Origin: Kordiimonas pumila
GTDB taxonomy: Bacteria; Pseudomonadota; Alphaproteobacteria; Sphingomonadales; Kordiimonadaceae
Assembly: GCF_015240255.1 (NCBI RefSeq)
Contig: NZ_CP061205.1
Span: forward strand, 992,001 to 1,056,000
Direction: 5' to 3'
Length of the DNA: 64,000 bases
Part shown: in pieces, positions 10,109-55,292 of the stretch
Layout of the letters: every line of letters starts with the position of its first letter
How positions within the stretch are numbered: position 1 is the first letter of the stretch
Made by a program: the position numbers and the translations under genes
Notes under the pieces: generated by a model
The model's database searches: none
Told to the model about the DNA's origin: nothing
The model's input: the letters and a program-made list of their open reading frames with translations, nothing else

Positions 10109-10124
10109 CTTTAGCAGGCGCAGG

Positions 10125-10562
10125 TTACTCTGCGCTTGCGCGTAAATGCTCTAGTGTTGGCACCATGCCGCCTAAATCATAGCCAGCATCAGCGGCTTTT
10201 GCGACAATATCGCTAATGTTTCTGTCTGAACTTTTTGCCTCTGATAGGCCCCACAGTGTGCACGAGCGTGTGCCAGAGCGGCAAAAGGCTAGGGTTTTGC
10301 CGCTATCAGCCAAAGCTGTGGACGTATTTATTATGGCGTCCATTGTAAGCTGACCTGAGATGATGGGTATATGTAGCCAGCGCAAGCCTTTTGCCTCCGC
10401 ATAAGCTTGCAAGGTATCATTCGTGGGCTGCCCCGCTTCTTCGCCGTTTGGCCGGTTATTGATAATAAGGGTGAAACCTTCCTCTGCCGCCCTGTCGATG
10501 TCACTTTGTGTAATTTGAGGTGCAACAAAAAGGGTTTCTGTCACGGCGCGAAAGTCAGTCAT
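10125..10562 (-). CDS. DUF442/TIGR01244 family Cys-phosphatase-like protein
   Basis: A 145-residue protein starting MTDFRAVT, with a GGAG site 7 bases before the ATG. It has a tyrosine-phosphatase-like loop, FCRSGTRSCTLW (Cys near residue 92, C-x5-R), and the NNRPNGEE motif seen in the N-terminal domain of beta-lactamase-hydrolase-like (Blh) proteins linked to sulfide metabolism. Here only the phosphatase-like domain is present. It is the last gene of a run of four tightly spaced minus-strand genes headed by pseI. Substrate unknown. Confidence 0.8.
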   Translation of the reverse strand: MTDFRAVTETLFVAPQITQSDIDRAAEEGFTLIINNRPNGEEAGQPTNDTLQAYAEAKGLRWLHIPIISGQLTMDAIINTSTALADSGKTLAFCRSGTRSCTLWGLSEAKSSDRNISDIVAKAADAGYDLGGMVPTLEHLRASAE

Positions 10563-10594
10563 TATGGTCTCCGGTTCTGTCAGTTTGGGCGGCG

Positions 10595-41342: not shown

Positions 41343-42527
41343 TTATTTGTTTAGGCGGTTATACTGGCGCATAATATCCTGAAGTGCCTTATGGGAAATT
41401 GCTTTTGCAGTATGGCCCATATTGCCCGTCATGTCGCGCCCCGCAACAAGGGCATTGATGATTGCTTCTTCGGTGGCTTCTACCACGGCCAGAAAGAGCG
41501 GGTCCATCTCGTCATTTGTAATCATGGTAATCGCTGTTTTGGGGCCGCTCTGTAAGGCGTTTTGGTTGGCAGTAGAGAAAGCAACAAAAATATCACCGCT
41601 GCCGTTGCCTGCATAACTGCCATTGCGGGCGAGACCAAGGGCCGCACGCCGGGACAGCCGTTTTAACTGATGTGGCAGCAAGGGTGCATTGGTCGCAACG
41701 ACAATAATAATGGAGCCGGTTTCTGTGAAACGGGTGTTATTTTCACTATAGGCTTTATCTTCCTGCAAATGTTTGCCAACAGGCACACCCGCGACCCTTA
41801 GCGTATCACGTGTGCCATAATTAGCCTGTACCAGTACGCCGACACTATAGGGGCCGTCGTTCATTTCTATAATGCGTGATGATGTACCGGTTCCACATTT
41901 AAACTGGTGGCAAATCATACCTGTGCCGCCGCCCACGTTGCCTTCGCCTACCGGCCCGCTGGCAGCGCCGTTCAGGGCTTCGGTCACATGCTCGGCTTTT
42001 ACATGGAAGCCATTAATGTCGTTCAGCCACCCATCCCATGTTTCTGCTACAACTGGCAGCGACCACCAGTAGCCACTGGCGTCGGCGGCACCCGCTGCTA
42101 CCCGCCATGCAATGCTCGCGTCGCGCACTGTGCCAACACTGTGCGTATTGGTAATAAGGATGGGTCCCTCCAGCATGCCAGACTCTTCAAGCCATGCTGT
42201 ACCGGTCATTTCGCCGTTACCATTCAGGGAAAAATAGCCACCAAACACAGGCTTATCATGGGTTTCTGTGCCGCGCGGTAAAATAGCTGTTACACCAGTA
42301 CGTACGGCTTTGCCGTCTGGCAAATCCGCTATAATGGTAGTTTCACCAACTGTAACGCCTGGCACATCTGTGATGGCATTAAAGTGCCCAGGTGTGCCAT
42401 CAAACGGTATGCCTAGGCCTCTGGCTCTTACAGGTTTGTCATCGGCTAAAGCTGTTGGAAAAAAGGTGTTAAAACAGTAACCAGTCACCAGTAGCATTAC
42501 TATTTTCGCATTAAGTATCATACGCAT
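41343..42527 (-). CDS. P1/DmpA family (S58) aminopeptidase
   Basis: About 394 residues from an ATG at 42527 with a GGGGAGG site; signal peptide at the N-terminus. GTPGHFNAITDVPGVTVGETTI is the DmpA/BapA N-terminal hallmark and NGSGDIFVAFST near residue 310 is the self-cleavage site, with the Ser becoming the N-terminal nucleophile of the small chain. The family releases N-terminal D- or beta-amino acids. It lies beside an amidohydrolase, again a peptide-breakdown context, and presumably works in the periplasm. Confidence 0.9.
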   Translation of the reverse strand: MRMILNAKIVMLLVTGYCFNTFFPTALADDKPVRARGLGIPFDGTPGHFNAITDVPGVTVGETTIIADLPDGKAVRTGVTAILPRGTETHDKPVFGGYFSLNGNGEMTGTAWLEESGMLEGPILITNTHSVGTVRDASIAWRVAAGAADASGYWWSLPVVAETWDGWLNDINGFHVKAEHVTEALNGAASGPVGEGNVGGGTGMICHQFKCGTGTSSRIIEMNDGPYSVGVLVQANYGTRDTLRVAGVPVGKHLQEDKAYSENNTRFTETGSIIIVVATNAPLLPHQLKRLSRRAALGLARNGSYAGNGSGDIFVAFSTANQNALQSGPKTAITMITNDEMDPLFLAVVEATEEAIINALVAGRDMTGNMGHTAKAISHKALQDIMRQYNRLNK

Positions 42528-42697
42528 AGAAAAACCTCCCCGTAGCAATTACTCATCAAAGGCCATTTTTATTCCAGACTATATAGTATAGCCTATATTA
42601 CAAATGCTATTTACTGTTAACGCTATCGCTCAATACTCAGAAATGTCTGTATAGTAGCGTTATCTTTTGGGGCCATGCAGGGTAATGAACTGAATTT

Positions 42698-43879
42698 ATG
42701 AGCACTCATGCTGTCACGATTTATTTTTTCTCGAATGCTGGGGAGCATGGCTATGCTTACGCGCAGGCGCTAGGTAGTATTGCCCAGCGCGTTGGTTTTG
42801 GTTTTGTCCATTGCTGCGAAGGTGAGCCAACAACAATAGCCATGGATCAAATCAGGCAATGCCCAGAAAGCTCTATTGCGCTTACCATTAACGACAGTAT
42901 GCGGCGGCACAGTGTGTTGGGCGTGCCGCTCAACCAGTTGCTGAAAAAGGATAAAATTCCGCACATCTGTTTTGTGATTGATCACCCTTTGTATGTTTTC
43001 AGACCGTGGATGAATGACGGTCATACGTGTTTTTTATTCACCAGCCCTGAAAGCGAAGCATTTTATAAAAAATATTACCAAGGCGCATCTGCCTGCAAAA
43101 CAGACTTTATCTGGAATGTTGGGTTGCACTACGGCACAAGCCTGTCTGAGCAAGCCCTGTCTGGTGTAGCGAAAAGAGAGCATCAGCTCTTTGTGCCCAT
43201 TAATTTTGACTGGCAGGGTTCAACGCTTGACAGTTATCTTTCTGATAGCGCCGAATGTGCAGCGGACATACGACCTGATGTTGAAGCCTGTGTCGAAAAA
43301 TTTGTAACAGATCAGGACTGTACCCCCAGCGATATTGCAGCTTTCATGGCCAAAAGGGGCCATGACCCGGCACGTGAGCATTTTGCAAAAATGATAAAAC
43401 TTGCCGATAAAGGCATTGAGCTGCAACGCCGAAACCTGCTGCTGACAGAGCTGGTCAGGTTTCCGGTAACGCTTTCCGGGCGCGGTATTCCGCCTCAGAT
43501 AATAGAAACATCAAAGGCGTGCTACATCCCCCATCATACAATGATGGACAGTTATTATATGTACCGGCAGTGCAGTGCGATTATGAATACCAGCACATCA
43601 GGTACCCCTATACATGACCGGGTTTCAAATGCCATGGCGGCAGGCTGTTTGCTGGTGACACAAAACAGTACTGCCTTAAAAAGCATTTTCCCTGAAGCCA
43701 GCTATGTAGGCTATGACTATAACCCAGCGTCAGTGGGGGCTGCTTTGGAAACGCTCTTCTCTGGTTGCAATATAGAGGGCACGGCGTATCAGGGGTGGCA
43801 GGCAATCAACACACCAGAAGTCTTTGCTATTTTATATGGTGGGCTAAAGCGGCTGGCTGATGCCTGCCTCTCTGGGTAA
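42698..43879 (+). CDS. CgeB-like GT-B glycosyltransferase-type protein
   Basis: A 393-residue soluble protein, first gene of a nine-gene operon. The N-terminal lobe is divergent (HICFVIDHPLYVFRPWMN), while the C-terminal lobe has the pattern TSTSGTPIHDRVSNAMAAGC-LLVTQNS followed by VGYDYNPA, resembling the CgeB/Glyco_trans_1_2 group that recognises a nucleotide-sugar. Donor and acceptor unknown. Close relatives are found in flagellin-glycosylation loci, which would fit with pseudaminic acid genes elsewhere, but that is inference. The next gene starts 9 bp after its stop. Confidence 0.65.
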   Translation: MSTHAVTIYFFSNAGEHGYAYAQALGSIAQRVGFGFVHCCEGEPTTIAMDQIRQCPESSIALTINDSMRRHSVLGVPLNQLLKKDKIPHICFVIDHPLYVFRPWMNDGHTCFLFTSPESEAFYKKYYQGASACKTDFIWNVGLHYGTSLSEQALSGVAKREHQLFVPINFDWQGSTLDSYLSDSAECAADIRPDVEACVEKFVTDQDCTPSDIAAFMAKRGHDPAREHFAKMIKLADKGIELQRRNLLLTELVRFPVTLSGRGIPPQIIETSKACYIPHHTMMDSYYMYRQCSAIMNTSTSGTPIHDRVSNAMAAGCLLVTQNSTALKSIFPEASYVGYDYNPASVGAALETLFSGCNIEGTAYQGWQAINTPEVFAILYGGLKRLADACLSG

Positions 43880-43888
43880 GAGGATAGT

Positions 43889-45100
43889 ATGAAATTAAGC
43901 CATAGTGAAAAGAAAGCGGAACTGGGAAGGCATTTGTCTGCCGCCTCCATGCTTTTATTCCCAGATCAAAGGTTGGCGGTTTTTTTCTCGCCCAAGGCGG
44001 CGGCGAGCAGTATTTTGAACTGGTACCACCGTATTCACGGTCTTGAACAATATGCGAAAGACGCCCGCACCAAGTTTGGCGCAGGCAAGTACGAACTGAT
44101 GCTGGCGCACCAAAGTTCGGCTACATATGGTGCAGTGCTTGAGGATTTACGCGAATCTATACTGCGCGGTGAAAGCGGCGACTGGACAACAGTAAAAATA
44201 GTGAGAGACCCATACGACCGTGCGGTTAGTGCCTTTTTGATGGTGCTGTATCTGCGCAATCACACGCTTAGTTTCCGCGATTTTCTAAGTTTGCCGAAGG
44301 CACACTTTACCCGGTTTGGTGATGGGCACTGCAGGCAGCAGTTTAGTGAACTTGAACGCCTCGGGGTTTTAAAATTTAACCAGATTCTGAAAATAGAAAC
44401 AGGTATAGACAATATTCTTGGCGGGCTGGAAAAACAGTTTAATCTTGCTTCAGGCTTACAAAGCCAAAGCTTGCACGCAAACAAAGCCCGCTACGAACCG
44501 GTGGGTGGTATGACCGGTCCTGTATCTGAGCTGCCCATAGCTTCAGAAGGCCTAAAACTTGGTAAGCCGGTACCACCCCGACAGGCGTTTCTCGACGCAC
44601 ACACAAAGCAGGCGATTTATCATCATTACCGCGAAGACTTTGAGGCCTATGGTTACCCACACGGCCTAGGGGCAGGGGATACTGGTTTTTCTGTTTCTGA
44701 GATTACACCGACCGCACGCAATTTTATGCGGGATGAGCTAACAGGTGGATTATATAGCCTTGTAAAGGCCTTGGGGCCTGACCAGCGGATTGTTTTTATG
44801 GGTGCGGGCAGTACCTTTATGGAATTTTTGTTCGATAAAGAATTTGAAAACCAGCAGATTGTAGCCGTGCTTGATAATGCCCCTGCAACACGGGAGCGGT
44901 GGCAGTATATACTCGGCTATAACCTGAATATACCAGTGCTTGCGCCTGAGGATGTGACCACGCTGGATTTTGACAAGCTTGTTATAACATCAAGAGATAT
45001 ACCAGTGGTTGAGGCTCAAATGAAAGCCTTGGGGGTTGATGAAAATAAATTTGTCAGCGTAAAGTTGTTGCCAGAATTTCATCCTTTGAACATGGGGTAA
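43889..45100 (+). CDS. Sulfotransferase fused to Rossmann-like sugar domain
   Basis: A 403-residue two-domain protein. Residues about 20-255 form a Sulfotransfer_2-like domain: FFSPKAAASSILNWYH (5'-phosphosulfate loop) and KIVRDPYDRAVSAF (3'-phosphate site) are the PAPS-binding motifs. Residues about 290-400 are separate: FMGAGSTFMEFLF, IVAVLDNAP, GYNLNIPVLAPEDV and DKLVITSRD, a Rossmann-like unit of the kind found at the C-terminus of sugar methyltransferases. It probably sulfates a sugar product of the same operon in the cytoplasm. The next gene is 3 bp downstream. Confidence 0.75.
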   Translation: MKLSHSEKKAELGRHLSAASMLLFPDQRLAVFFSPKAAASSILNWYHRIHGLEQYAKDARTKFGAGKYELMLAHQSSATYGAVLEDLRESILRGESGDWTTVKIVRDPYDRAVSAFLMVLYLRNHTLSFRDFLSLPKAHFTRFGDGHCRQQFSELERLGVLKFNQILKIETGIDNILGGLEKQFNLASGLQSQSLHANKARYEPVGGMTGPVSELPIASEGLKLGKPVPPRQAFLDAHTKQAIYHHYREDFEAYGYPHGLGAGDTGFSVSEITPTARNFMRDELTGGLYSLVKALGPDQRIVFMGAGSTFMEFLFDKEFENQQIVAVLDNAPATRERWQYILGYNLNIPVLAPEDVTTLDFDKLVITSRDIPVVEAQMKALGVDENKFVSVKLLPEFHPLNMG

Positions 45101-45103
45101 TGT

Positions 45104-45676
45104 ATGGGTATGAAGTTTGAAAAGCTGGGTGGTACCGATGTATGTGTGATTAGCCGTAACAGCTTTTCTGATGCACGGGGCAGTTTTACCCGGGTTTATT
45201 GTGAAGCCGAGTTTGCAGAGGCTGGCTTGCCTACGCATTTTCCCCATATTAATTTTTCTGACAATGTGGCGCCGTTTACCTTAAGGGGAATGCATTTTCA
45301 GTATCCGCCGCACGAAGAAGGTAAAATGATCTTCTGCGTTGCCGGGCGGATATTTGATGTAGCCGTGGATGTGCGCCCCGAAAGCAGCACCTATAAACAG
45401 TGGGTAGGGCTAGAGCTGGATGCAGACAATAAGCAAAGCCTTTATGTGCCTGCGGGTTTTGCGCACGGTTTTTTAACGCTGGAACCGCACACAAGGGTTA
45501 TATATATGGCAACAGAACCCTATAAGGGTGGGGCAGAAGGCGGGCTGCGCTATGACGACCCCGCAATTGCCATTAAATGGCCTGCCCAACCCGTAACGGT
45601 TTCAGATAAAGATCTGGTTTGGCCGTGTTTTGATGCGGCTGCACACCACGCCGCAAAATGGGGGAAACAAAAGTGA
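45104..45676 (+). CDS. rfbC: dTDP-4-dehydrorhamnose 3,5-epimerase-like (RfbC/RmlC)
   Basis: A 190-residue cupin. RGMHFQ near residue 63 has the catalytic His, with DVAVDVRPES, YVPAGFAHGFLTLE and EGGLRYDDPAIAIKWP as the other family hallmarks. Family members epimerise NDP-4-keto-6-deoxy sugars at C3 and/or C5; with a CDP-glucose pyrophosphorylase next door the natural substrate here is more likely a CDP-sugar than dTDP-rhamnose. No rmlA, B or D is nearby. Its stop overlaps the GTG start of the following gene. Confidence 0.87.
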   Translation: MGMKFEKLGGTDVCVISRNSFSDARGSFTRVYCEAEFAEAGLPTHFPHINFSDNVAPFTLRGMHFQYPPHEEGKMIFCVAGRIFDVAVDVRPESSTYKQWVGLELDADNKQSLYVPAGFAHGFLTLEPHTRVIYMATEPYKGGAEGGLRYDDPAIAIKWPAQPVTVSDKDLVWPCFDAAAHHAAKWGKQK

Positions 45677-46446
45677 AAACAGTTTTGCTGGCAGGGGGAT
45701 ACGGCACACGATTTGCCGAGATGACCGAAGCGGTACCAAAGCCAATGGTGCCCATTGGGGGCAAACCTATTTTGTGGCACATTATGAAGCATTATACCAC
45801 GTTCGGGCACCGTGATTTTATCATCTGTCTTGGATATAAGGCAGATGTGATCCGTAATTATATGATGGGCTTGCTGCATAATATGTCGGATTTTACGGTT
45901 GATCTGGGTACAGGGGAAATCCAGTACCATAACAGGGCTGGGGAAAACTGGCGCCTGACCCTTATTGATACAGGCATTGATACCGGCACCGGGGGCAGGC
46001 TTAGAAAAATTCAGCATTTGGTTGAGGGCGAAACTTTTTGCATGACATACGGGGACGGTGTTTCCAATGTGGATATAGCAGCCTTGAAAGCGCACCATGC
46101 GGCACAGGGAAAACTGGCGACAGTGACAGCTATTGTACCACCATCCCGCTATGGCTGCCTTGATATGGACGGCGATGATGTTGTGTCTTTTAGTGAAAAG
46201 CCAGATGCCGCCCGTTCATTTGCGCGCATTAACGGTGGTTTTTTTGTGCTTGATGCCGGTGTGATCGATTATATTCATGCAGATTCAGACATGTGGGAGG
46301 ATCAGCCCATGCAGGATTTGGTAGCAGCCAAACAGATGTCTGCCTTCAAGCACGACGGGTACTGGCAGTGTATGGACAATCTACGGGATCATAAAAATCT
46401 TGAGGCTCTGTGGGTAACAGGAAAGGCGCCGTGGAAAACATGGTAA
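45673..46446 (+). CDS. rfbF: Glucose-1-phosphate cytidylyltransferase
   Basis: About 257 residues from a GTG at 45673, preceded by GGGGGA and overlapping the rfbC stop (GTGA); a start at 45658 is possible but not family-like. VKTVLLAGGYGTRF is the nucleotide-binding start, KPMVPIGGKPILWH the substrate loop, and YGDGVSNVD the metal-binding Asp. It makes CDP-glucose from glucose-1-phosphate and CTP, first step of CDP-dideoxy and CDP-branched sugars. The expected 4,6-dehydratase RfbG does not follow. Confidence 0.92.
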   Translation: MKTVLLAGGYGTRFAEMTEAVPKPMVPIGGKPILWHIMKHYTTFGHRDFIICLGYKADVIRNYMMGLLHNMSDFTVDLGTGEIQYHNRAGENWRLTLIDTGIDTGTGGRLRKIQHLVEGETFCMTYGDGVSNVDIAALKAHHAAQGKLATVTAIVPPSRYGCLDMDGDDVVSFSEKPDAARSFARINGGFFVLDAGVIDYIHADSDMWEDQPMQDLVAAKQMSAFKHDGYWQCMDNLRDHKNLEALWVTGKAPWKTW

Positions 46447-46491
46447 GGCTGTGTGTAAAAGCTGTTTTGTTTTAACCTGTAGGATACTGTT

Positions 46492-47538
46492 TTGAAAATT
46501 CTGATTACTGGTAATATGGGGTATGTGGGGTCGGTTTTAATACCGCATCTGGCACAGGCTATTGGCCCTGCCGCAGAACTTACCGGGGTTGATAACGGGT
46601 ATTTTATGGGGGACCTAACATCATATGGCCCCCCACCAGAGGTATGCCTGCACACTCAAATCTTTGCTGATGTTCGTAACATTACAGCTAGTGAACTTGA
46701 GGGGTTTGATGCTGTGGTGCATTTGGCGGCTGTCTCAAATGACCCCATCGGGGCAGAGTTTGAAGCGGCGACATACGCTATTAACCAAACGGCAACAATA
46801 GAGCTGGCACAAGCTGCAAAAGCCGCAGGTGTTAAGACCTTTGTTTTTGCGTCAAGTTGCAGCGTTTATGGTGCAGGGCCTGATGCGCTGGTCGCTGAGG
46901 ACGGTGTTTTGGCACCGCAAACGGCCTACGCTATTTCAAAGGTGGAGGCAGAAGCCCAGCTGTGCCTTTTAGCGGGGGATAGCTTTCGTGTTACATGCCT
47001 GAGGTTTGCAACGGCATGTGGTTTTTCACCCCGATTAAGGCTTGATCTGGTTGTGAATGACTTTACGGCCTCGGCGCTTAGCACAGGCAGTATTTTACTG
47101 AAAAGCAAAGGCAATGCATGGCGACCGTTTATTGCGGTTTCAGATATGGCACGGGCCATAGAATGGGGCCTTATCCGCGAAGGGGCTGTATGCGAGGTTG
47201 TTAATGTCGGGCACGATAGCCTTACATGCAAGATAAGTGATCTGGCGGCGACAGTATCACAGCATATTGGCAATGTAGCTGTTAAAGTTGATGAGGCTGC
47301 CCAGGATGATAAACGGTCATATAGGGTTGATTTTTCAAAATTTCAGGCACTTGCCCCCGACCACCAACCGTTGAAAACATTCCCTGAGATTATTGAAGAA
47401 CTGGTTGCAGGCTTGCGTGCCTTTAGTTTCGCGGATGCGCACTTCAGGGCTGGTAACCTCATTCGGCTCAACCGGCTTTCTGGTTACCGGGAGAAAGGCC
47501 AAATGACCCGTGACCTACGGTGGGGGCCCTATGGTTGA
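46492..47538 (+). CDS. Extended SDR epimerase/reductase (operon gene 5)
   Basis: A 348-residue extended SDR starting at TTG 46492 with AGGA 8 bases upstream. NAD(P)-binding ITGNMGYVGS is at residue 4-14 and YAISKVEAE (YxxxK) near 145. The strand that in 4,6-dehydratases ends S-[TS]-D-E-V-Y-G reads ASSCSVYGAG, lacking the Asp-Glu pair, so a dehydratase role is unlikely. It is probably an epimerase or 4-ketoreductase acting on the CDP-sugar. Its last bases overlap the following SDR gene. Confidence 0.82.
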   Translation: MKILITGNMGYVGSVLIPHLAQAIGPAAELTGVDNGYFMGDLTSYGPPPEVCLHTQIFADVRNITASELEGFDAVVHLAAVSNDPIGAEFEAATYAINQTATIELAQAAKAAGVKTFVFASSCSVYGAGPDALVAEDGVLAPQTAYAISKVEAEAQLCLLAGDSFRVTCLRFATACGFSPRLRLDLVVNDFTASALSTGSILLKSKGNAWRPFIAVSDMARAIEWGLIREGAVCEVVNVGHDSLTCKISDLAATVSQHIGNVAVKVDEAAQDDKRSYRVDFSKFQALAPDHQPLKTFPEIIEELVAGLRAFSFADAHFRAGNLIRLNRLSGYREKGQMTRDLRWGPYG

Positions 47539-48457
47539 TGGCCGCAACCATCTGCAAGCAGGTGTTTTAGGTGCCTCAGGGCTTATCGGGCAGGGCATAT
47601 ACCGTGTTCTAGCTAAAGCGGGAGGTGCGGTTTCAATCGGGCGCACAGCAGCAATGCAGCGCCAGTGTGATATAGACGAGCCTTTGCAAGCCGGTACATT
47701 CAGCAGCCTTGATACGCTGGTGTATGCGGCAGGGCTGCGCGATGAAGACATGTTGACAGGCGGTGAAAATGCTGCCCGGAAAGCCGCCGATACAGCATTG
47801 CGCCGGGCTGAGCATGTTTTTGAGTGCGCGCTGCAAGCGGGCTGTAAAAAACTGGTTTATATTTCTTCTGCTCATGTCTACGGGGCATTGCAAGGCACAA
47901 TAACCGAGGATACAGCGCTTGCGCCCCAGTCCCTTTATGCTGAAACACATACAGCAGTAGAGATGCTTGCCGCAAGCAAGGCAGTAGAGGCGGGTGGTCG
48001 GTGCCTTATCCTGAGGCCCAATGCTGTTTACGGCATGACATTTGACCCTGCCCGTTTTGCAAGGTGGAATTTAATTCCCTTTAGCTTTCCTCTCGCTGCT
48101 ATCAGGCATAGCCAGTTAGAAGTGCGGGCACCACACGCGGGCAGAAATTTTGTTTCCAGCATGGATATAGGGGTATACGTTAAAGCCTGGCTTGAGAATA
48201 AAACGGCGCCGCAGGTGCAATTTTTAAACCCGCTTGGGGCAGATACTTTAACAATTGGCGCGTTTGCCGCTAAATGCGCTAAAGTTGCAGAGCAACTGAC
48301 CGGCACGAAAGTTGCGTTAAAGTATGGTAATAGTGCAGCGCCCGCTTTTTTATATGCCAGCAAGTATGAAAAAGTGACGTTGACTGAAACGATAGATGAC
48401 TTCTTGCCGGTCTATGCAAGATTTTGCCTTGAGGCTGATGTGCCGCCCAAGTGCTGA
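47531..48457 (+). CDS. Extended SDR epimerase/reductase (operon gene 6)
   Basis: About 308 residues from ATG 47531, which overlaps the stop of the previous gene (ATGGTTGA). AGVLGASGLIGQG is the nucleotide-binding motif, YISSAHVYGAL the beta-strand before the active site and SLYAETHTAVEM the YxxxH-like position where the usual Lys is replaced by His, so activity should be checked. The C-terminal substrate lobe is short. It belongs to the same operon. Role on the sugar path unknown. Confidence 0.72.
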   Translation: MVDGRNHLQAGVLGASGLIGQGIYRVLAKAGGAVSIGRTAAMQRQCDIDEPLQAGTFSSLDTLVYAAGLRDEDMLTGGENAARKAADTALRRAEHVFECALQAGCKKLVYISSAHVYGALQGTITEDTALAPQSLYAETHTAVEMLAASKAVEAGGRCLILRPNAVYGMTFDPARFARWNLIPFSFPLAAIRHSQLEVRAPHAGRNFVSSMDIGVYVKAWLENKTAPQVQFLNPLGADTLTIGAFAAKCAKVAEQLTGTKVALKYGNSAAPAFLYASKYEKVTLTETIDDFLPVYARFCLEADVPPKC

Positions 48458-48478
48458 ACATGAAATGCGAGAAACCCT

Positions 48479-49528
48479 ATGCAACTGCGTAATTTTGATT
48501 TTTCCCGGAAGATTTTTTACCACCCAGACCGGGTGGCAGAATTAAAGCAGGGTGGGCGACCATTTCCGGTAACGGTGGAAATTGATCTGACAAACAGGTG
48601 CAATCATAATTGCAGCTTCTGTTTTTATGCCGAGCATATCAACACAGACCAAAGCACCCTTAAGGTCGATGTGATTAAAAATGCGTTGGTGGAACTAAAA
48701 GAAATGGGCGCACGCGGTGTTAGTTTTACTGGTGGCGGCGAGCCTATGGTGCACCCTCATTTCACTGATATTCTGGCCCATGCGGCGGCGACTGGGCTGG
48801 ACTGCGGCCTTATTACAAACGGATCGGCTATTACAAAAAAGAATGTAGAGGTTTTAGCGCGCGATCTGGCGTGGATCAGGGTTTCTGCAGCGGGCGGCAC
48901 ACCTGAAAGTTATGCAAAGGTGCAAGGTAAAGATCACTTTGACCGGGTGGTGGCAAATATTGCACTGTTAAAAGCGGAAAAAGACAGAATAGGCAGCGCT
49001 ATTAACATTGGTGTGCGCATGCTTGTGACCCCGGAGAATCTTTTTTCCGTACCAAATCTCGCAAAAATTTTGGCTGAAATGGATGTTGATTATCTGCAAG
49101 TTGCTCCAGACCAGTTCACGGAAGATGACGGGGCGTTCTGGAACGACCCCGCGACACAGGCAGTGTTTACCGAGGCGAATAGCTATTTTAGCATGTCGCA
49201 CACCCGCCTCTTGACCTCTGGTTATGTCTGGTATCAGGACCAGTTGGAAAAGCCGCAGGCGTGTTATGCCCATTATTTCCAAATAGCAGTGCTGGCTGAA
49301 GGGCATATTACATTTTGCAAAAATGCTCGCGGCGCTGAAAAATTCTACATCGGTAATATCAACGAAAACTCGGTTCAGGAAATCTGGAATTCTGTTACCA
49401 ACGAAGAACTGGAAGCATGGGTCAAGCCGTCGAACTGCGGCCTTTACTGTAAGCATATTCAAATGAATTTGGCGCTTGAGGATGTGGTGCATCCTGATCC
49501 GGATATGTCACCAAACTTTGTAGGATAG
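48479..49528 (+). CDS. Radical SAM enzyme with SPASM-type C-terminus
   Basis: A 349-residue protein. The [4Fe-4S]-SAM cluster ligands are Cys 41, 45 and 48 (NRCNHNCSFCFY), followed by the GGE-like motif FTGGGEPMVHP. Further Cys in CYAHY, ITFCKN and the C-terminal CGLYCKH fit a SPASM or twitch auxiliary cluster, and YIGNINENSVQEIWNS is the SPASM hallmark. It has no B12-binding domain. In this sugar operon it could perform a radical dehydration, epimerisation or deamination of a nucleotide-sugar, or act on a peptide; the sequence does not decide. Confidence 0.85.
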   Translation: MQLRNFDFSRKIFYHPDRVAELKQGGRPFPVTVEIDLTNRCNHNCSFCFYAEHINTDQSTLKVDVIKNALVELKEMGARGVSFTGGGEPMVHPHFTDILAHAAATGLDCGLITNGSAITKKNVEVLARDLAWIRVSAAGGTPESYAKVQGKDHFDRVVANIALLKAEKDRIGSAINIGVRMLVTPENLFSVPNLAKILAEMDVDYLQVAPDQFTEDDGAFWNDPATQAVFTEANSYFSMSHTRLLTSGYVWYQDQLEKPQACYAHYFQIAVLAEGHITFCKNARGAEKFYIGNINENSVQEIWNSVTNEELEAWVKPSNCGLYCKHIQMNLALEDVVHPDPDMSPNFVG

Positions 49529-49533
49529 CTTGT

Positions 49534-50316
49534 ATGCATGAAAGGGTTGTTGTTGGGGCAAGGGGGTTGGTTGGCAGTGCCTTTTGCCGCTATTTTGAAA
49601 GCCATAAACTTTCCTACACAGCGGTGCAGCGTGAAGAGGCACAGTCCCACGGCATAGAGAAATGCGGGCTTCTAGTTTTAGCGTGCGGGAATGCCAATAA
49701 AGGCAAGGCAAACGCAGACCCAGCATGGGACTTTACCCAGTCGGTTGAGGCGGTGGCATCTTATGTGCACATGCTCAAGCCAGAGCGCACAATCCTGATT
49801 TCAACGGTGGATGTTTATCCTGACCCATCTTCCGTTCAGCAAACGGCAGAGGCATATCCGCTTAATCCCCTTGCGTGTCAGCCTTATGGTTTTCATAAAT
49901 GGTTGGCAGAACAGTATGTGCAAAAATTTTCTGGAAAGCATCTGGTGTTGCGGCTACCGGCACTTGTTGGGCCGGGCCTGACAAAAAACCCGGTTTTTGA
50001 TTATTTTGCTCTGGGCAAACCCCTGTTTGTTTCACCGCTATCGCGCCTTAATGTGGTGCATGTGGATGATGTGGCAAGGCATGCTATGCATTTGGTGGCA
50101 GAGGGGGTTGAAGGTGAAACGTTTAACCTTGCGGCCAGTGCCGCCATTACTGTTGGTGATTTCCCCGTCCTCTTTGGCGGCGAGAGCCAGTATGTAGAAG
50201 GGGCTGACAAAAATATACAAACGTACGATATTAATATCCAAAAGGTTTTACAGTTTGTTACTTTATGTTCAAGTGAAAACGCGGTCAAAAGATACCAGAG
50301 TATTTTGCAGAAATAA
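49534..50316 (+). CDS. SDR epimerase/reductase (operon gene 8)
   Basis: A 260-residue short member of the extended SDR class, starting 5 bp after the radical SAM stop. VVVGARGLVGSAF is the nucleotide-binding loop, ISTVDVYPDPSS the active-site strand and YGFHKWLAEQ the YxxxK. The C-terminal lobe has NVVHVDDVARHAMH, typical of NDP-sugar epimerases or reductases. The size resembles 4-ketoreductases such as RmlD. It may perform the final reduction of the unusual sugar. Confidence 0.8.
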   Translation: MHERVVVGARGLVGSAFCRYFESHKLSYTAVQREEAQSHGIEKCGLLVLACGNANKGKANADPAWDFTQSVEAVASYVHMLKPERTILISTVDVYPDPSSVQQTAEAYPLNPLACQPYGFHKWLAEQYVQKFSGKHLVLRLPALVGPGLTKNPVFDYFALGKPLFVSPLSRLNVVHVDDVARHAMHLVAEGVEGETFNLAASAAITVGDFPVLFGGESQYVEGADKNIQTYDINIQKVLQFVTLCSSENAVKRYQSILQK

Positions 50317-50356
50317 GCCCCGTACGGTAGCCTGTTTTTGAGAAACCGGAGATACA

Positions 50357-51406
50357 ATGAACAGAATAAAAAACGATGTATCAGATGCGATAAACCGTGC
50401 CCTGCGTGATTTTGAAAACCAGTTATCGCGCGCATACCGGTTTGGTACATCGGTCTCTGATACAAACCTGCGGGATACGCTGGCAAACATTCTAAGGCGC
50501 TCAATCACACATCAGGTTATCTCACAGTGGGATGCGGGCTATCATGTGGGTGAAGATGGCGCTTATGCCAAAGGCATTGTAGAAATTGGCAAGCTTTTAT
50601 CCGCCCAGCAGATTAAGGATATTACCCAGAATCTGGCAGATAAGCCGGTCTATAATACACCGACTATCGGCGATAGTGACGGGGTTGAACGGTTTGTAGG
50701 CGGTACGGCAGAAAGTGAACGCCTTGGCGGGTATCGTCTTGATGATATTTTGGCAGCGCCGCATTTGCTGGAGCTTGCTAATAACCCTGTTGTTATATCG
50801 GGTGTCCAGAAGCTGTTTAGAAACTGCCCACCGGTTCTTACCCTTATGTCATTGTGGTGGGCTTTTCCGGTTGTTGACAAACCGGTGTTATATTTGGGCC
50901 AAAACTTCCACCGGGATGCTGACGGCTTTCATAATGCAGCTCTGTTTACATACCTCACCGATGTGGATGATGAAGCAGGCCCGCACCAATATATAGAAGG
51001 TAGTGCAAGCAGGGATGCTTTGGCTGAAACTCTTGTTGGCAGATTGCCCATAGTGGTTGAGGATGGCCGTCATAAGGGCAGTGTGATTGAAGCAGTTGAT
51101 TTTTTCTTTCAGGACCACGGTGATGACCTGAATGCTGTATATGAAAACTACCTCGCGGATCATATCAAGACTGTAAAATTAAGCGCAGGCCATGGATTTA
51201 TAACCGATACTTTTGGGCTTCACAGAGGTGCCGCACCCACCAAAACACCGCGGCTTATTTTTACAGCCCGGTACGGTACTCTTGATAATGTGAATGCCGA
51301 CCACCGTAAGTCACAGTATTTTGAGCCGTGGCCCTGGAAAAAAATCGCACACAGGCTGCCTGAAAACTTTAAAACACGATATGTCAATAGGTTGCTGGTT
51401 GAGTGA
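50357..51406 (+). CDS. Fe(II)/2-oxoglutarate dioxygenase, phytanoyl-CoA hydroxylase-like
   Basis: A 349-residue oxygenase, last gene of the operon. The facial triad appears as H-x-D in FHRDADGFHN near residue 183 and a distal His in TDTFGLHRG near 288, followed by PRLIFTARYG with the Arg that binds 2-oxoglutarate. AGPHQYIEGS is the usual loop between them. Related enzymes hydroxylate small molecules, sugars or antibiotic precursors. No signal peptide. A hairpin follows about 10 bp after its stop. Confidence 0.82.
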   Translation: MNRIKNDVSDAINRALRDFENQLSRAYRFGTSVSDTNLRDTLANILRRSITHQVISQWDAGYHVGEDGAYAKGIVEIGKLLSAQQIKDITQNLADKPVYNTPTIGDSDGVERFVGGTAESERLGGYRLDDILAAPHLLELANNPVVISGVQKLFRNCPPVLTLMSLWWAFPVVDKPVLYLGQNFHRDADGFHNAALFTYLTDVDDEAGPHQYIEGSASRDALAETLVGRLPIVVEDGRHKGSVIEAVDFFFQDHGDDLNAVYENYLADHIKTVKLSAGHGFITDTFGLHRGAAPTKTPRLIFTARYGTLDNVNADHRKSQYFEPWPWKKIAHRLPENFKTRYVNRLLVE

Positions 51407-51415
51407 AAACATGCA

Positions 51416-51442
51416 GCACACTTAGTGTGCGTGTGCGCTTTT
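51416..51442 (+). terminator. Hairpin at the end of the sugar operon
   Basis: GCACAC and GTGTGC pair across a TTA loop, followed by GTGTGCGCTTTT. The T-run is short and displaced, so termination strength is uncertain. Confidence 0.5.
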
Positions 51443-51454
51443 ATGTGTACTGGA

Positions 51455-52210
51455 CTAATCTAGCATTGTTTTGATAGCCTGCTCTGTATTGGCCTGTAGT
51501 GCACGGTGAATGTCATCCCGAAGTCCGGCGTCAAGTGCTGCTTGCATGTTGACATTAAAGGCCTTCAAAGCCCGCGTGCAGGCAGAAGATTTCGAAAACG
51601 TAAAATACAGCGGAAACTTAGGCATATTAGGCTGTTCAACTACTTTTAAGGCGAGTCCACCGAGATCAACCGTGGGCTTGTTCCAGAATAACAGGTTGCC
51701 TACTATAATTGCCTCTACTTCATCGTCGCGGAGCATTCGCAGCGCTCTTCTTTCAGGTATGATAACTGTTGTATAATCCTCTTTCACCGCATCAAGTATT
51801 GTATGGCTAAACTGCACCATAATATCAGATACGGCAACCAGCTGGGGTGGTTTTTCCAACTCGGCTTTTACAGCAATGCTGGCACCAATATTTAAAATTG
51901 GAATAGAGGGCACCATTTCTGTTGGAATAAAGATCAGTGTCGTCATGACGATATCTATTTGACCCTGTTTGTGCAGTGCAGCGATACGTTTTTCAGGCAA
52001 TAGTGGGATAAGTTTCGGTCGAATACCGGCCTTTTCAAAAATATCCAGCATTTGCGGGTTTAATTCACCCGTGTTTGAAACAAAAACATCGCCTGCGAGC
52101 TGCGACCACATGGACGGTGAGACTGTGCATGTCACATAATCAGCATCGACGGCGGATACAGGTGTGGATAAAGCAAAAGCTCCAATTATTAATGCAAAGA
52201 GGCGTATCAT
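51455..52210 (-). CDS. Family 3-like periplasmic solute-binding protein
   Basis: About 251 residues from ATG 52210 (AGGAAATAC upstream), with a signal peptide ending TPVSA-V. The two-lobe PBP type 2 fold is suggested by the order of segments: GELNPQMLDIFEKAGI, PEKRIAALHKQGQIDIVMTT, ILNIGASIAVKAELEK and ERRALRMLRDDEVEAIIVGN. No permease or ATPase adjoins, so it may be a stand-alone sensor-type PBP. It is the last chromosomal gene before the tRNA remnant and integrated element. Confidence 0.75.
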   Translation of the reverse strand: MIRLFALIIGAFALSTPVSAVDADYVTCTVSPSMWSQLAGDVFVSNTGELNPQMLDIFEKAGIRPKLIPLLPEKRIAALHKQGQIDIVMTTLIFIPTEMVPSIPILNIGASIAVKAELEKPPQLVAVSDIMVQFSHTILDAVKEDYTTVIIPERRALRMLRDDEVEAIIVGNLLFWNKPTVDLGGLALKVVEQPNMPKFPLYFTFSKSSACTRALKAFNVNMQAALDAGLRDDIHRALQANTEQAIKTMLD

Positions 52211-52393
52211 GTATTTCCTGCCAGAAAACATTCTTACAATACTTATAATTATAAAAACTTAACGAAGTCTAAGTTTGTGGGTGTCAACCACTGGTTACAT
52301 GCAGAAGCAGCATTCTGAACGCTAGACTGAAAAAGCTCGAAAAACGACAGCAACTTGCAGGTTTTATCAAACTATAAAGCTGGTTTTGAAAAG

Positions 52394-52443
52394 TGGTGCC
52401 CGGGGGCGGATTTGAACCACCGACACGCGGATTTTCAATCCGA
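52394..52443 (-). other. attL: 3' fragment of tRNA-Phe(GAA)
   Basis: On the minus strand this reads as the 3' half of tRNA-Phe: anticodon loop TTGAAAA (anticodon GAA) flanked by TCCG stems, variable loop GTGTC, T-arm GGTGG-TTCAAAT-CCGCC, acceptor CCCGGGC-A-CCA with CCA encoded. The 5' half (acceptor 5' strand and D-arm) is absent to the right, where unrelated AT-rich sequence begins. This is the product expected when an element inserts into the 3' part of a tRNA gene, leaving a fragment at one end and a restored tRNA at the other. The integrase gene starts 150 bp away. Confidence 0.85.
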
Positions 52444-52477
52444 ATGTAAAGATATGGATTGAAACTACTTGAAATCC

Positions 52478-52524
52478 CCTGATGATATATAATATGTTGT
52501 AAATAATAGATATTATATATCAGG
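52478..52524. promoter_or_regulatory. AT-rich imperfect inverted repeat upstream of int
   Basis: CCTGATGATATATAATAT and ATATTATATATCAGG form an inverted repeat (one arm has a 3-base insertion) around GTTGTAAATAATAG. It may be an integrase/excisionase arm site or an operator over the int promoter. Confidence 0.45.
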
Positions 52525-52531
52525 GTATTTC

Positions 52532-52580
52532 AGGAGGCACCATGCACTTTCGATAAATAAGACCCTAATAAGACCCTAAT
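52532..52580 (+). promoter_or_regulatory. AGGAGG-led 4-codon frame and tandem 11-bp repeat before int
   Basis: A perfect AGGAGG at 52532-52537 precedes a four-codon frame (Met-His-Phe-Arg-stop) at 52542-52556. Then AAGACCCTAAT occurs twice in perfect tandem (52559-52569, 52570-52580), ending 12 bases before the int ATG. The int ATG itself has no ribosome site. The repeats could bind integrase, and the mini-frame could feed ribosomes to int; both are inference. Confidence 0.4.
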
Positions 52581-52592
52581 TTGGATATTGAT

Positions 52593-53888
52593 ATGCCAGA
52601 CTTACCAACGCATCACACTCAGATAAACGCCATAAAACCACCCAGTGACGGGCAGGTGGATTATTATGGCAAGGGAAGGGATTCAGGATTAATATTGCGA
52701 GTTTCGCATGTCGGTAGAAAAACTTGGTTTGTGCGCTACTGGGTCAACCGCAAAGGTATAAAGACAAGAGCTAAGAAAACTATTGGTCAGTTCCCGGGCT
52801 TGGATTTAAAAGAAGCTAGGAGTGAGAAGGCCCGGCTCTTTGTTCGGATTGAGAAGGGTGAAGACCCTGCATTAGATGATAAAGAACAGGCTAGGAAAAC
52901 TTCAATCAAAACAGTTGAGGAACTATGCGACAAGTTTTTCGAGTTGAGAGAAGTTGAGCTATTCAAAGGAAGACTACGCCGCAACGTCAATGACGAGAAA
53001 AGCATGGCTAAATGCTACATCATACCTGTAATTGGCTCATACGCTCCTCATGCAGTTACTAGTGATGATATTGATGAGTTACTAGCAAAGGCTCAGAAGC
53101 GCTGCTCAGCGAACCGAGCCAACCGTATATTGGCTCTGTTGCGTGTTTTGTTTAAGTTTGCTCTATCTGCAAAGGGCCATAAATGTGTTGATGAGAACCC
53201 TGCGATCAACATCCCTGCGCCAGGCCAAGAACGAGCGAAGGTAATCGATCCGCCCAAGACAAGCGAGATCAAAGAACTTTGGGACCGGATAGAGAATGGT
53301 GTTCACCCAGATAAGGGCAATCCAATATTGATATCACCTCAAATCCAACTGGTATTGAAGTTGTTGCTACTCACAGGTCAACGCTCTGCTGAAGTATCAC
53401 AGGCACCTATCGATGAATTTGATATGGCTGATAGAGTTTGGATCATTTCAGGCTCTCGTACCAAGAATGGTAAACCGCATAAAATACCTCTCTCAGATTC
53501 CGCCTACGAACTGGTAAAACAAGCAATGGAATTAGCCAAGCAGGATGCACCGAATTCTCCATACCTATTCCCAGGCTGGACAGGCAGGAACGGCCTCAGG
53601 CGGGGAACTATACCAATAGGTAAGACAGCGCCTCACCATGCCCTAAAACGGGTAACAGCAGGTAGTAAGCTCGATAGGTTTACCGTGCATGATTTCAGAA
53701 AGATATGTGCCACTCAGATGGCAGAGCTAGGGGTTCTTATGGAGATTGTATCTGAGATACTGAACCATTCAATTAATACAGTGACAGCCAGGCATTATGC
53801 AAAACCAAGTTATTTACCTCAGATGAGGGAAGCACTTGAATTATGGTCAGATCATTTAATGAAGATTGTGCAGGGAAAAAATGAATAA
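52593..53888 (+). CDS. int: Tyrosine recombinase integrase
   Basis: About 431 residues from ATG 52593 (a TTG 12 bases earlier is possible). The N-terminal DUF4102-like domain (about 10-95; LILRVSHVGRKTWFVRYW) and a core-binding domain (about 105-200) precede the catalytic domain: Arg in TGQRSAEV near 264, H-x-x-R as HDFRK near 366, then LNHS and the Tyr nucleophile in ARHYAK near 401. Complete and apparently active P4-type integrase. It acts on the adjacent tRNA-Phe site. Its last 8 bases overlap the start of the next gene. Confidence 0.93.
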   Translation: MPDLPTHHTQINAIKPPSDGQVDYYGKGRDSGLILRVSHVGRKTWFVRYWVNRKGIKTRAKKTIGQFPGLDLKEARSEKARLFVRIEKGEDPALDDKEQARKTSIKTVEELCDKFFELREVELFKGRLRRNVNDEKSMAKCYIIPVIGSYAPHAVTSDDIDELLAKAQKRCSANRANRILALLRVLFKFALSAKGHKCVDENPAINIPAPGQERAKVIDPPKTSEIKELWDRIENGVHPDKGNPILISPQIQLVLKLLLLTGQRSAEVSQAPIDEFDMADRVWIISGSRTKNGKPHKIPLSDSAYELVKQAMELAKQDAPNSPYLFPGWTGRNGLRRGTIPIGKTAPHHALKRVTAGSKLDRFTVHDFRKICATQMAELGVLMEIVSEILNHSINTVTARHYAKPSYLPQMREALELWSDHLMKIVQGKNE

Positions 53889-54621
53889 GAAACCCATTCC
53901 ATATGGTTACTGCCTCTTACACGACGCACCTGAGTATTTAGCAGGGTCTGAGTCCGTGGAGCAAGATATGGCAGTAGTATCCATTAAAGAGGCACTGAGG
54001 TTAGGCAAGATAGAAGCAAAGCTTTATTTAGATGACCCTAACGGTAACTTGGGTACAACTATAATATATGATCTAGCGCGAAATTTCATAGTCTCTCCGG
54101 ACCTAGATTTAGCGTTCACGGGTTCTAAAGGTTGGTCTCTATGGAATAAGTCTGAGAAGAATCAAACAAATGGCATCAGCAATTTGTCTGAGATTTTGGT
54201 GGACGAAAAAGCAACCAACTTATTTGGCTCTAAGCAAAGGATTTATGCGCGCATCAATGGTCGAGTTATTATTCACCAAGTGACGTTAGATGACTTTCAA
54301 ATGATCTGTACTGGGACTAACAACAAAGATGCAGGCGCAAATATACCTCTCAGAGCTCGGTCCGGCGGTCCGGGACGTCCAACAACAAGACATCTAGTGC
54401 TCCCTCATTTCAGAGAGAGGGTTGAAAATAACCGATGTGAAAAGGGTGTAGGGAAAGAAGCTGAGTATCTTTCAGGCTGGCTGCAACAAGAATATCCACA
54501 TGAGCACCAGCTCGGCAGTAATAGCATCGAGAATTGGATTCGAGATGTTTTCAAAAAAGCCCGGGCTGGCAAGGTTCCAGAACACATGTGGGAAAACATG
54601 TTAAAGCCAAAATCCCATTAA
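53881..54621 (+). CDS. Unknown protein coupled to the integrase
   Basis: A 246-residue soluble protein from ATG 53881, overlapping the integrase stop (ATGAATAA), with AGGGA in the end of int. N-terminal part includes YGYCLLHDAPEYL, central FTGSKGWSLWN, and a basic patch ARSGGPGRPTTRHLVLPHF near residue 160 followed by a helical C-terminus (SNSIENWIRDVFKKARAGKVP) that looks like a DNA-binding helix set. I recognise no family. Tight coupling with int suggests a role in element maintenance or excision. A good terminator follows. Confidence 0.65.
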   Translation: MNKKPIPYGYCLLHDAPEYLAGSESVEQDMAVVSIKEALRLGKIEAKLYLDDPNGNLGTTIIYDLARNFIVSPDLDLAFTGSKGWSLWNKSEKNQTNGISNLSEILVDEKATNLFGSKQRIYARINGRVIIHQVTLDDFQMICTGTNNKDAGANIPLRARSGGPGRPTTRHLVLPHFRERVENNRCEKGVGKEAEYLSGWLQQEYPHEHQLGSNSIENWIRDVFKKARAGKVPEHMWENMLKPKSH

Positions 54622-54646
54622 ATTACCCATTTAATTGAATAAAAGG

Positions 54647-54670
54647 GCCCACTTTTTAGTGGGCTTTTTT
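54647..54670 (+). terminator. Terminator after int operon
   Basis: Stem GCCCAC/GTGGGC with loop TTTTTA followed by six T. It lies 25 bp past the stop of the integrase-coupled gene. Confidence 0.9.
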
Positions 54671-54723
54671 CATCTTACATCCTTGGTGTGCAAATGACTG
54701 CACGACAAACCAAAGGAATTAAA

Positions 54724-54972
54724 ATGCATAATAGTAAGAGCTCTATTCAGCAGAATGAGCAAAGTATCCAAACCATGTCACCTATACCTGACCGGGTCAT
54801 CCGAGAGAAGGAACGGCGCTATCTCACAGGCGTATCAAATACTACCTGGTGGCGTCTTGAGAAAGCGGGACTAGCCCCCAAGGGCTTTAAGCTTGGAGCA
54901 GCTGCAAAAGGGTGGACACTCAACTCCATCGAAGAGTGGATCAAATCACGTAAGGAGGGCCAACCATGGTAG
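54724..54972 (+). CDS. AlpA-like excisionase/regulator
   Basis: An 82-residue protein from ATG 54724 (AAAGGAA 7 bases upstream; an ATG at 54694 is an alternative). Residues about 20-80 hold a winged helix-turn-helix: YLTGVSNTTWWRLEKAGLAPKGFKLG then GWTLNSIEEWIKSRK, the AlpA/MerR-like excisionase pattern of P4-like elements. It should bind DNA near att or the replication promoter. Its stop overlaps the ATG of the next gene by 7 bases, so they are coupled. Confidence 0.82.
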   Translation: MHNSKSSIQQNEQSIQTMSPIPDRVIREKERRYLTGVSNTTWWRLEKAGLAPKGFKLGAAAKGWTLNSIEEWIKSRKEGQPW

Positions 54973-55184
54973 CTCCTTATCGTGATAGGCACTCAGATGC
55001 CTATAAGGAAAGCCTGATCGCTAGATTAGCCAGTAAGCCCGGTTTAAGGGGGGCTATTGATGCGAACTGTGTGGAATGTATCTACGATCCTCGCGATAGC
55101 GGGACTTGGAGAAAACAGTGTGAGGATTGCTCTTGCCTGAGCTGTCCGTTGCATCCAGTTAGACCTACAACCATTAACAAATAA
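54966..55184 (+). CDS. Cys-rich 72-residue protein
   Basis: Short basic protein that begins VAPYRDRHSDAYKESLIARL after the initiator Met. The C-terminal half has six Cys in CVEC, and KQCEDCSCLSC, suitable for zinc binding. GGAGGGCC precedes the ATG, which overlaps the stop of the AlpA-like gene. Similar small Cys-rich proteins are common in alphaproteobacterial satellites without known role. A hairpin-type terminator follows. Confidence 0.65.
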   Translation: MVAPYRDRHSDAYKESLIARLASKPGLRGAIDANCVECIYDPRDSGTWRKQCEDCSCLSCPLHPVRPTTINK

Positions 55185-55187
55185 AAA

Positions 55188-55217
55188 GCCCGCTCAAGTA
55201 ATCAGAGCAGGCCTTTT
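55188..55217 (+). terminator. Terminator after the AlpA operon
   Basis: GCCCGCTC pairs with GAGCAGGC (one mismatch) around a 9-base loop, followed by CTTTTC. Confidence 0.65.
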
Positions 55218-55292
55218 CGTTCGTTTGATCGTGGATGATGATACCCTGTCTCTGTTTATTTGCAACGGCTTTCTTAATAGAAAGTTTGTATT

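Follow-up and report, generated by a model that had tools for sequence, protein, structure and literature searches.

What sugar would be made by a bacterial operon that joins a glucose-1-phosphate cytidylyltransferase to a radical S-adenosylmethionine (SAM) enzyme, a sulfotransferase and a putative 2-oxoglutarate (2OG) oxygenase? The question is raised by nine co-directional open reading frames (ORFs), here termed g1 to g9, at positions 42698-51406 on the + strand of a 64,000-nucleotide stretch of the Kordiimonas pumila genome (contig NZ_CP061205.1, 992,001 to 1,056,000; the whole stretch is called the window). The analysis described here points to a core chemistry in which CDP-glucose (CDP, cytidine diphosphate) would be oxidised to a 4-keto sugar, epimerised at C3/C5 and reduced at C4 to a CDP-hexose that keeps its C6 hydroxyl group. 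A probability of about 0.57 is given to this reading. In the ORF list of the window the intergenic gaps from g1 to g9 are 9, 3, -19, 45, -29, 21, 5 and 40 bp, and this spacing suggests that the nine genes are transcribed as a single unit.

The first step of such a pathway can be assigned with some assurance. The g4 product (45658..46446) scores 343.5 bits against the NCBIfam model TIGR02623 (cut-off 300.25), which identifies it as RfbF, the glucose-1-phosphate cytidylyltransferase, and g3 (45104..45676) scores 164.9 bits against TIGR01221 (cut-off 155.75), which identifies it as an RfbC/RmlC-type 3,5-epimerase of 4-keto sugar nucleotides. All known RfbC substrates are 4-keto compounds of this kind, and in the classical pathway they come from the CDP-glucose 4,6-dehydratase RfbG. 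No RfbG scores above the cut-off in the complete host genome (4.04 Mb in one contig, completeness listed as 100%); the model gave 10 matches at E ≤ 1e-5, the best reaching 96.2 bits against a required 278.45. Of 14 control genomes, one has a match above the cut-off. The classical 6-deoxy route is therefore unlikely, and an RfbG-dependent pathway was discarded on the strength of this genome-wide search. Moreover, when g5 is aligned with an annotated RfbG control (from the rfbG locus L137), the sequence SSCSVYG stands in g5 and TTDKVY in RfbG. Because the RfbG model is negative and g5 lacks the TTDKVY stretch, CDP-4-keto-6-deoxyglucose is not an expected product of g5 or, within the reach of the RfbG model, of any other gene.

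The g5 product (46492..47538), a short-chain dehydrogenase/reductase (SDR), is the candidate for a different kind of C4 oxidation. Its best sequence match in the PDB is entry 6vo6 (E 8e-24), presumably Cj1427 of Campylobacter jejuni, and the two share the stretch RLDLxVNDF, which is absent from the next three PDB matches of g5. The pattern R-x-D-[LI]-V-x-N occurs in all but one of 22 g5-type proteins and SSCSxYG in 20 of them, and both are absent from the RfbG control. The g5 protein thus lacks the T-T-D stretch of the dehydratases and shares R-x-D-[LI]-[VL]-x-N with 6vo6; these stretches may mark function. Cj1427 is described as oxidising C4 of GDP-heptose (GDP, guanosine diphosphate), after which alpha-ketoglutarate re-oxidises the bound NADH and L-2-hydroxyglutarate is released (PMC10680097, PMC7949155). 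For g5 the substrate would be CDP-glucose rather than GDP-heptose, because RfbF is encoded in the operon.

The genomic company of g5 was examined at 22 g5-type loci outside the window, drawn from 10 of 17 other places in 289 genomes of the class (a sample that includes the window's own genome), from 11 of 67 plasmid records and from one viral contig. Counts rest on tblastn (E ≤ 1e-8, alignments longer than 90 residues), because gene tiling gave spurious ORFs at loci of high guanine-plus-cytosine (GC) content. The plasmid loci span 5 to 9 kb either side, and absences hold for those stretches; one locus (L076) is a short contig of 5954 bases, two (L074 and L075) come from one genus and are nearly identical, and four are Deinococcus plasmids, also of one genus. 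Genes for RfbF were found at 17 of the 22 loci (with a further match of 25% identity in L082), for RfbC at 14, for a C-methyltransferase at 11 and for a Gfo/Idh-type protein at six, and an LhgO-like protein was found at seven, a frequency biased by the choice of the Deinococcus plasmids. A clear RfbG was found at none of the 22; what comes nearest is an SDR of L082, with 22% identity to RfbG and 57.5 bits where the model requires 278.45. The single RfbG locus put through the same procedure (L137) contains no g5. RfbF, g5 and RfbC therefore recur together in other bacteria.

These results bear out much of what an earlier note had proposed for the locus: nine same-strand genes with overlaps or gaps of at most 45 bp (computed here as -29 to +45 bp), an RfbF that commits the operon to CDP-glucose, and, following on it, RfbC and an SDR of the kind found in CDP-sugar clusters.

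The strongest indirect support for oxidation by g5 comes from the position of LhgO, an L-2-hydroxyglutarate oxidase, since L-2-hydroxyglutarate is the by-product of Cj1427. Four Deinococcus plasmids (L114, L117, L138 and L139) have the order rfbF, lhgO, g5-type gene and rfbC, followed by a protein annotated as Gfo/Idh/MocA or SAF-domain, and all four LhgO proteins pass the L-2-hydroxyglutarate oxidase model NF008726 with 576 to 588 bits against a cut-off of 299. These clusters resemble the Kordiimonas operon in keeping RfbF, a g5-type SDR and RfbC together; they differ from it in their LhgO and their Gfo/Idh/MocA or SAF-domain protein, and in having no relatives of its radical SAM, sulfotransferase and 2OG genes. 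In L074 the order is g5-type gene, rfbC, an SDR-like gene and an LhgO-like gene, the last scoring 195 against 299 bits. No paper holding both rfbF and lhgO was found in the literature search.

RfbF, a g5-type SDR and RfbC are also encoded together in a contig of presumed phage origin. At positions 7209-12306 of the 168.7-kb IMG/VR contig IMGVR_UViG_3300028783_000001 (L171; L172 is the same contig), genes for RfbF, a g5-type SDR (52%), RfbC and an SDR with Tyr-x-x-x-His lie in a row. This arrangement looks like a self-contained unit, in which the fourth protein is at best a possible orthologue of g6. DNA methyltransferase-like genes lie upstream, and downstream are a ParB-like gene and then a match to phrog_842 (beta-glucosyl-HMC-alpha-glucosyltransferase). 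The DNA of this presumed phage is possibly decorated with a CDP-derived sugar.

Two further SDRs of the operon are candidates for the C4 reduction; like g5, both pass PF01370. The g6 protein (47510..48457) has Tyr-x-x-x-His in place of Tyr-x-x-x-Lys. It matches at E ≤ 1e-25 in one other of the 289 class genomes, where the gene directly follows that for RfbC, and it has a single plasmid relative at E ≤ 1e-12 (36.9%), in the order rfbF-rfbG-rfbC-g6. The histidine is present in all three g6-type proteins and is thus regarded as a retained feature and not as decay. The g8 protein (49534..50316; PF01370, 60.6 bits) is a short SDR with Tyr-x-x-x-Lys and could be the reductase instead of g6, a second reductase or a partner of g7. 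It has no PDB sequence match at E ≤ 0.01 and one weak plasmid relative (31% over 60% of its length); a short SDR in a further locus (L100) was considered as its counterpart and dropped, as BLASTP finds nothing. A conserved four-gene core was likewise rejected: g6 is absent beside g5 at all 22 loci, and the claim of a core is therefore limited to RfbF, g5 and RfbC.

Together, these assignments suggest the following order of events. RfbF (g4) would make CDP-glucose. The g5 enzyme would oxidise C4 by means of a tightly bound NAD, re-oxidised by alpha-ketoglutarate, to give CDP-4-keto-glucose and L-2-hydroxyglutarate. RfbC (g3) would invert C5 and/or C3 beside the ketone, and g6 (or g8) would reduce C4 to give a CDP-hexose with the C6 hydroxyl kept. 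By stereochemical counting this product would most likely have the L configuration, that is L-altro, L-manno, L-talo or L-ido. Remodelling of the CDP-sugar, or of the sugar once transferred, may then be the task of g7, g8 and g9, with sulfation by g2 from 3'-phosphoadenosine 5'-phosphosulfate (PAPS) and transfer to an acceptor by g1.

Two described pathways offer a comparison. In the GDP-heptose route of C. jejuni the C4-dehydrogenase Cj1427, the C3/C5-epimerase Cj1430 and the C4-reductase Cj1428 act on a sugar whose C6 hydroxyl is kept in the product (PMC10680097). The chemistry predicted here would follow the same order, in which C4 is oxidised with no loss of water, the sugar is epimerised next to the ketone and C4 is then reduced; the operon differs in its predicted use of CDP-glucose, in its additional sulfotransferase, radical SAM and 2OG genes, and in the Tyr-x-x-x-His of g6. 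The core is thus probably the CDP counterpart of a non-dehydrating C4-dehydrogenase, C3,C5-epimerase and C4-reductase route. The second pathway, that to CDP-D-fucofuranose and CDP-6-deoxy-L-altrofuranose in C. jejuni HS:41, is described as having a C4-reductase for its fourth enzyme (PMC12369002). It is alike in applying RfbF, a 3,5-epimerase and a C4-reductase to a CDP-sugar; it differs in using a 4,6-dehydratase and a mutase, whereas the window genome has no RfbG above the cut-off. The enzyme set of the plasmid locus rfbF-rfbG-rfbC-g6 equals the HS:41 set (PMC12369002).

The remaining genes would finish the sugar. The g7 product (48479..49528) scores 78.2 bits against PF04055 (cut-off 29.5) and 34.4 against the SPASM family PF13186 (cut-off 21.5), and contains CX3CX2C and four further conserved cysteines. 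In an alignment of 13 sequences C41, C45, C48, C262 and C280 are invariant and C320 and C324 nearly so. These features place g7 among the radical SAM enzymes with a SPASM/twitch region, in which the C-terminal cysteines are predicted to hold an auxiliary cluster. Its scores against the models for DesII (TIGR04426, 57.3 against 450) and BlsE (52.4 against 400), radical SAM enzymes that act on sugar nucleotides or nucleosides, are far below the cut-offs. A structure model of g7 (predicted TM-score, pTM, 0.79) was nearest in fold to SkfB (Z 24.6; root-mean-square deviation, rmsd, 2.9; 280 residues aligned), DesII (24.2; 3.5; 298) and SuiB (24.0; 3.7; 289), with BlsE next (22.9; 3.5; 278). DesII and BlsE are thus close to the g7 model in fold, and both top its PDB sequence list, whereas the peptide maturases SkfB and SuiB fit equally well; SkfB, DesII and SuiB are tied in VIA-align, and the modelled fold does not decide between a sugar and a peptide substrate.

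No match to g7 at E ≤ 1e-20 was found in 18 genomes of the same genus, and one was found among 40 more distant relatives; 13 other genomes of the class sample match at E ≤ 1e-25, and none of the matches at E ≤ 1e-35 in 398 genomes of the phylum (the host included) exceeds 32% identity. The closest relatives are 38-39% identical, and the closest of all, in a small incomplete genome, has RfbC, SDRs and glycosyltransferases nearby. This setting was repeated in one of five relatives searched, the two genomes being of one genus; the other relatives inspected sit among glycan genes. Among viral contigs, 11 of 27 loci (L173-L183, of which L173 and L174 are apparent duplicates) have long g7 relatives of 26-29% identity, and at L175, where the surroundings were read, the relative lies among glycosyltransferase-like and sugar-nucleotide genes.

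Radical SAM genes are also seen in another CDP-sugar cluster. A Brachyspira hyodysenteriae plasmid (L201, 10001-13686) carries rfbF, a radical SAM gene, an rfbC-family gene and a methyltransferase gene in that order (PMC4267127). In a Desulfolutivibrio plasmid (L202, 8001-11677) the order is rfbF, rfbG, an rfbC-family gene and a methyltransferase gene, with rfbG in the slot of the Brachyspira radical SAM gene. The Brachyspira block is alike in having radical SAM genes within a CDP-sugar cluster; it differs in that the two radical SAM proteins compared are 23% and 17% identical to g7 over partial length and that the one SDR compared is not of g5 type. Radical enzymes may thus have entered CDP-sugar paths more than once.

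For g9 (50357..51406) the evidence is indirect. The protein itself has no Pfam or NCBIfam match, PF05721 (PhyH) included. Its homologues do better: of ten aligned rows, seven match this family, the ten including the window protein, which has no match, and a row read in the wrong frame (L044). In this alignment H185 and D187 (HRD), the distal H289 and R299 are invariant or nearly so; in such enzymes HxD...H is the metal triad, here H185/D187/H289, and the arginine, here R299, binds 2OG. Together these features suggest a divergent PhyH-like 2OG/Fe(II) oxygenase. Its structure prediction, with a mean pLDDT (predicted local confidence) of 34.6, was unusable, and no relatives were found in the viral contigs. 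The g2 protein (43889..45100; 403 residues) has an N-terminal sulfotransferase domain (PF03567, 28.7 bits against 22, residues 24-121 only) and a C-terminal part beyond this family; g2 has no PDB sequence match at E ≤ 0.1 and no plasmid relative at E ≤ 1e-8. An adenosine 5'-phosphosulfate (APS) kinase for PAPS is encoded in the host genome (229.7 bits). Two plasmid loci, the first with g5 and the second with rfbG, have an annotated sulfotransferase close to rfbF-rfbC; the likeness of these sulfotransferases to g2 is marginal. The g1 protein (42698..43879; 393 residues) is probably a glycosyltransferase, scoring 20.9 bits against PF13524 (Glyco_trans_1_2), below the gathering score of 25, and the plasmid collection yielded no relative of it at E ≤ 1e-8. 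A sulfated or hydroxylated product may be envisaged from these genes.

The nine-gene set as a whole is not conserved, since the g5, g7 and g9 types are not clustered in any other genome of the class sample. With E limits that differ between the three lists, g5 and g7 types occur together in one other genome (G116), on different contigs. Two genomes combine g5 and g9 types, G108 at a distance of about 100 kb and G267 on different contigs, and one (G329) combines g7 and g9 types, again on different contigs; in none of the other genomes do g5-, radical SAM- and 2OG-type matches cluster. Relatives of g1, g2, g6, g7, g8 and g9 at E ≤ 1e-8 were found at none of the 22 g5-type loci, and the finishing enzymes (radical SAM, sulfotransferase and oxygenase) were not found beside the core elsewhere in this study. 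The earlier note had staked the operon on such a comparison of neighbourhoods; the co-localisation it looked for is seen for RfbF, g5 and RfbC, but not for g1, g2 and g6 to g9. Its radical SAM and sulfotransferase genes both pass their Pfam cut-offs. Its 2OG dioxygenase is supported by the homologues and the conserved HRD/H/R residues, but not by any family match of g9 itself. That radical SAM genes are foreign to CDP-sugar paths is contradicted by the Brachyspira plasmid, while the g7 type indeed was not seen beside g5 elsewhere.

Several observations weigh against the proposed core and its finishing steps. A literature search for the entry code 6vo6 gave no confirmation that it is Cj1427. 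The g6 protein has a histidine for the catalytic lysine; its relatives are absent beside g5 at the 22 loci, where the weaker matches are to other SDRs, in most cases to g5 itself; and its best-placed relative is clustered with RfbG, not g5. Because g6 does not recur with g5, confidence in the core was lowered from 0.6 to 0.57. In the viral contig the SDR in fourth place matches g5 (33%) better than g6 (30%) over 210 residues, and L082, which lacks R-x-D-[LI]-V-x-N and has an RfbF match of 25%, is an outlier and a doubtful member of the g5 type. The lhgO frequency is biased by selection, the Deinococcus plasmids having been picked as lhgO-named (4 of 40 rows listed among the 67) and coming from one genus, and the LhgO-like gene of the window genome lies outside the operon and scores 227 against 299 bits. 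Finally, the core recurs without the tailoring genes, so that comparative support for the finishing steps goes no further than a radical SAM gene near RfbC in two genomes of the same genus.

Other readings of the locus have to be set against the non-dehydrating pathway. Because the best NCBIfam model for g5 is GalE (66.3 bits) and its second PDB match is nearly equal to the first (E 1e-22), g5 may be an ordinary GalE-type C4-epimerase that makes CDP-galactose. RfbC, g6 and g8 would then be a second branch or relics, and a galactose-derived residue would be decorated. Several 4-epimerases are indeed among the PDB matches. Yet g5 is far below the GalE cut-off of 262.3, rfbC, with its 4-keto substrates, is present at 14 of the 22 g5 loci, and an epimerase cluster would have no obvious use for an L-2-hydroxyglutarate oxidase beside g5; this explanation is considered rather improbable. 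If a 4,6-dehydratase were encoded at another place in the genome, the product would be a classical 6-deoxy CDP-sugar; in favour of this, rfbF, rfbG and rfbC are adjacent in other clusters and the genome has other SDRs (the 10 sub-threshold RfbG matches). Against this stand the best genomic score of 96 against 278 bits, the presence of RfbG inside the cluster in L137 and L202 and the lack of a clear RfbG at any g5-type locus examined, and such a supply seems very unlikely indeed.

The operon could also serve two functions, with g3 to g6 making a CDP-sugar for g1, and g2 and g7 to g9 modifying a peptide, a lipid or a small metabolite. That g2, g7, g8 and g9 do not occur beside g5 elsewhere is in keeping with such a division, as is the fit of the peptide-acting SkfB (Z 24.6) and SuiB (24.0) to the g7 model, which is as good as that of DesII (24.2). 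The division is judged unlikely: g7 is separated by 21 bp from g6 and by 5 bp from g8, the inspected g7 relatives lie among glycan genes, and no precursor-peptide gene was noticed, the last a weak argument since the ORF list starts at 90 residues.

The surroundings of the operon are as follows. On its 5' side a 149-bp gap, in which no sigma-70-like site was listed, separates it from a divergent gene; sigma-70-like sites in the region number 14 against a mean of 16.1 (s.d. 4.9) in shuffles, which is no excess. On its 3' side a 48-bp gap leads to a convergent gene (51455-52231), and between the two lies a palindrome (51416..51430), a possible terminator that is terminator-like on the - strand; terminator-like sites in the region are no commoner than in shuffles. 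No RNA family reached its gathering score in 42000-52600. The left flank gene was found in 5 of 18 other genomes of the genus, and the two of these regions inspected both contain it together with an amidohydrolase homologue (38%), whereas the gene of the right flank is not shared.

Further to the right, a tyrosine integrase gene and a DUF3631 gene (52581-56417) mark the start of a region whose third-position GC is lower (0.380 against 0.466), and the sequence from 52581 onward is probably an integrative element that follows directly on the operon. The operon was considered as part of this element and excluded from it: its nine genes have a mean third-position GC of 0.475, which fits the 22 genes chosen on the left (0.466, s.d. 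0.024) and not the six on the right (0.380). At the window's edge three genes on the - strand (58842-63904) match components of the Mza anti-phage system in PADLOC, namely MzaE, MzaD and MzaC. A separate sugar-related pair lies 30 kb from the operon (11218-13262, - strand), where a gene for a NeuB-family synthase with a SAF domain adjoins a PylC-like ATP-grasp gene.

Overall, the locus may be read more widely as an undescribed pathway to a non-6-deoxy CDP-hexose, the first three genes of which would be found not only in bacteria but also in at least one large presumed phage. In this wider proposal, which is tentative and doubtful as a whole, the radical SAM enzyme would rebuild the CDP-hexose at the C6 hydroxyl or at a carbon next to it; oxygenation and sulfation would follow, giving a class of sugar new to glycans. 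If the proposed chemistry is correct, RfbF-g5-RfbC sets, annotated today as O-antigen or rhamnose genes, would make C6-hydroxylated CDP-hexoses, and the neighbouring L-2-hydroxyglutarate oxidase would be explained as a means of by-product removal. The g7 enzyme might then carry out radical chemistry on a CDP-sugar as part of glycan synthesis, of which no case is described in the open-licence literature searched.

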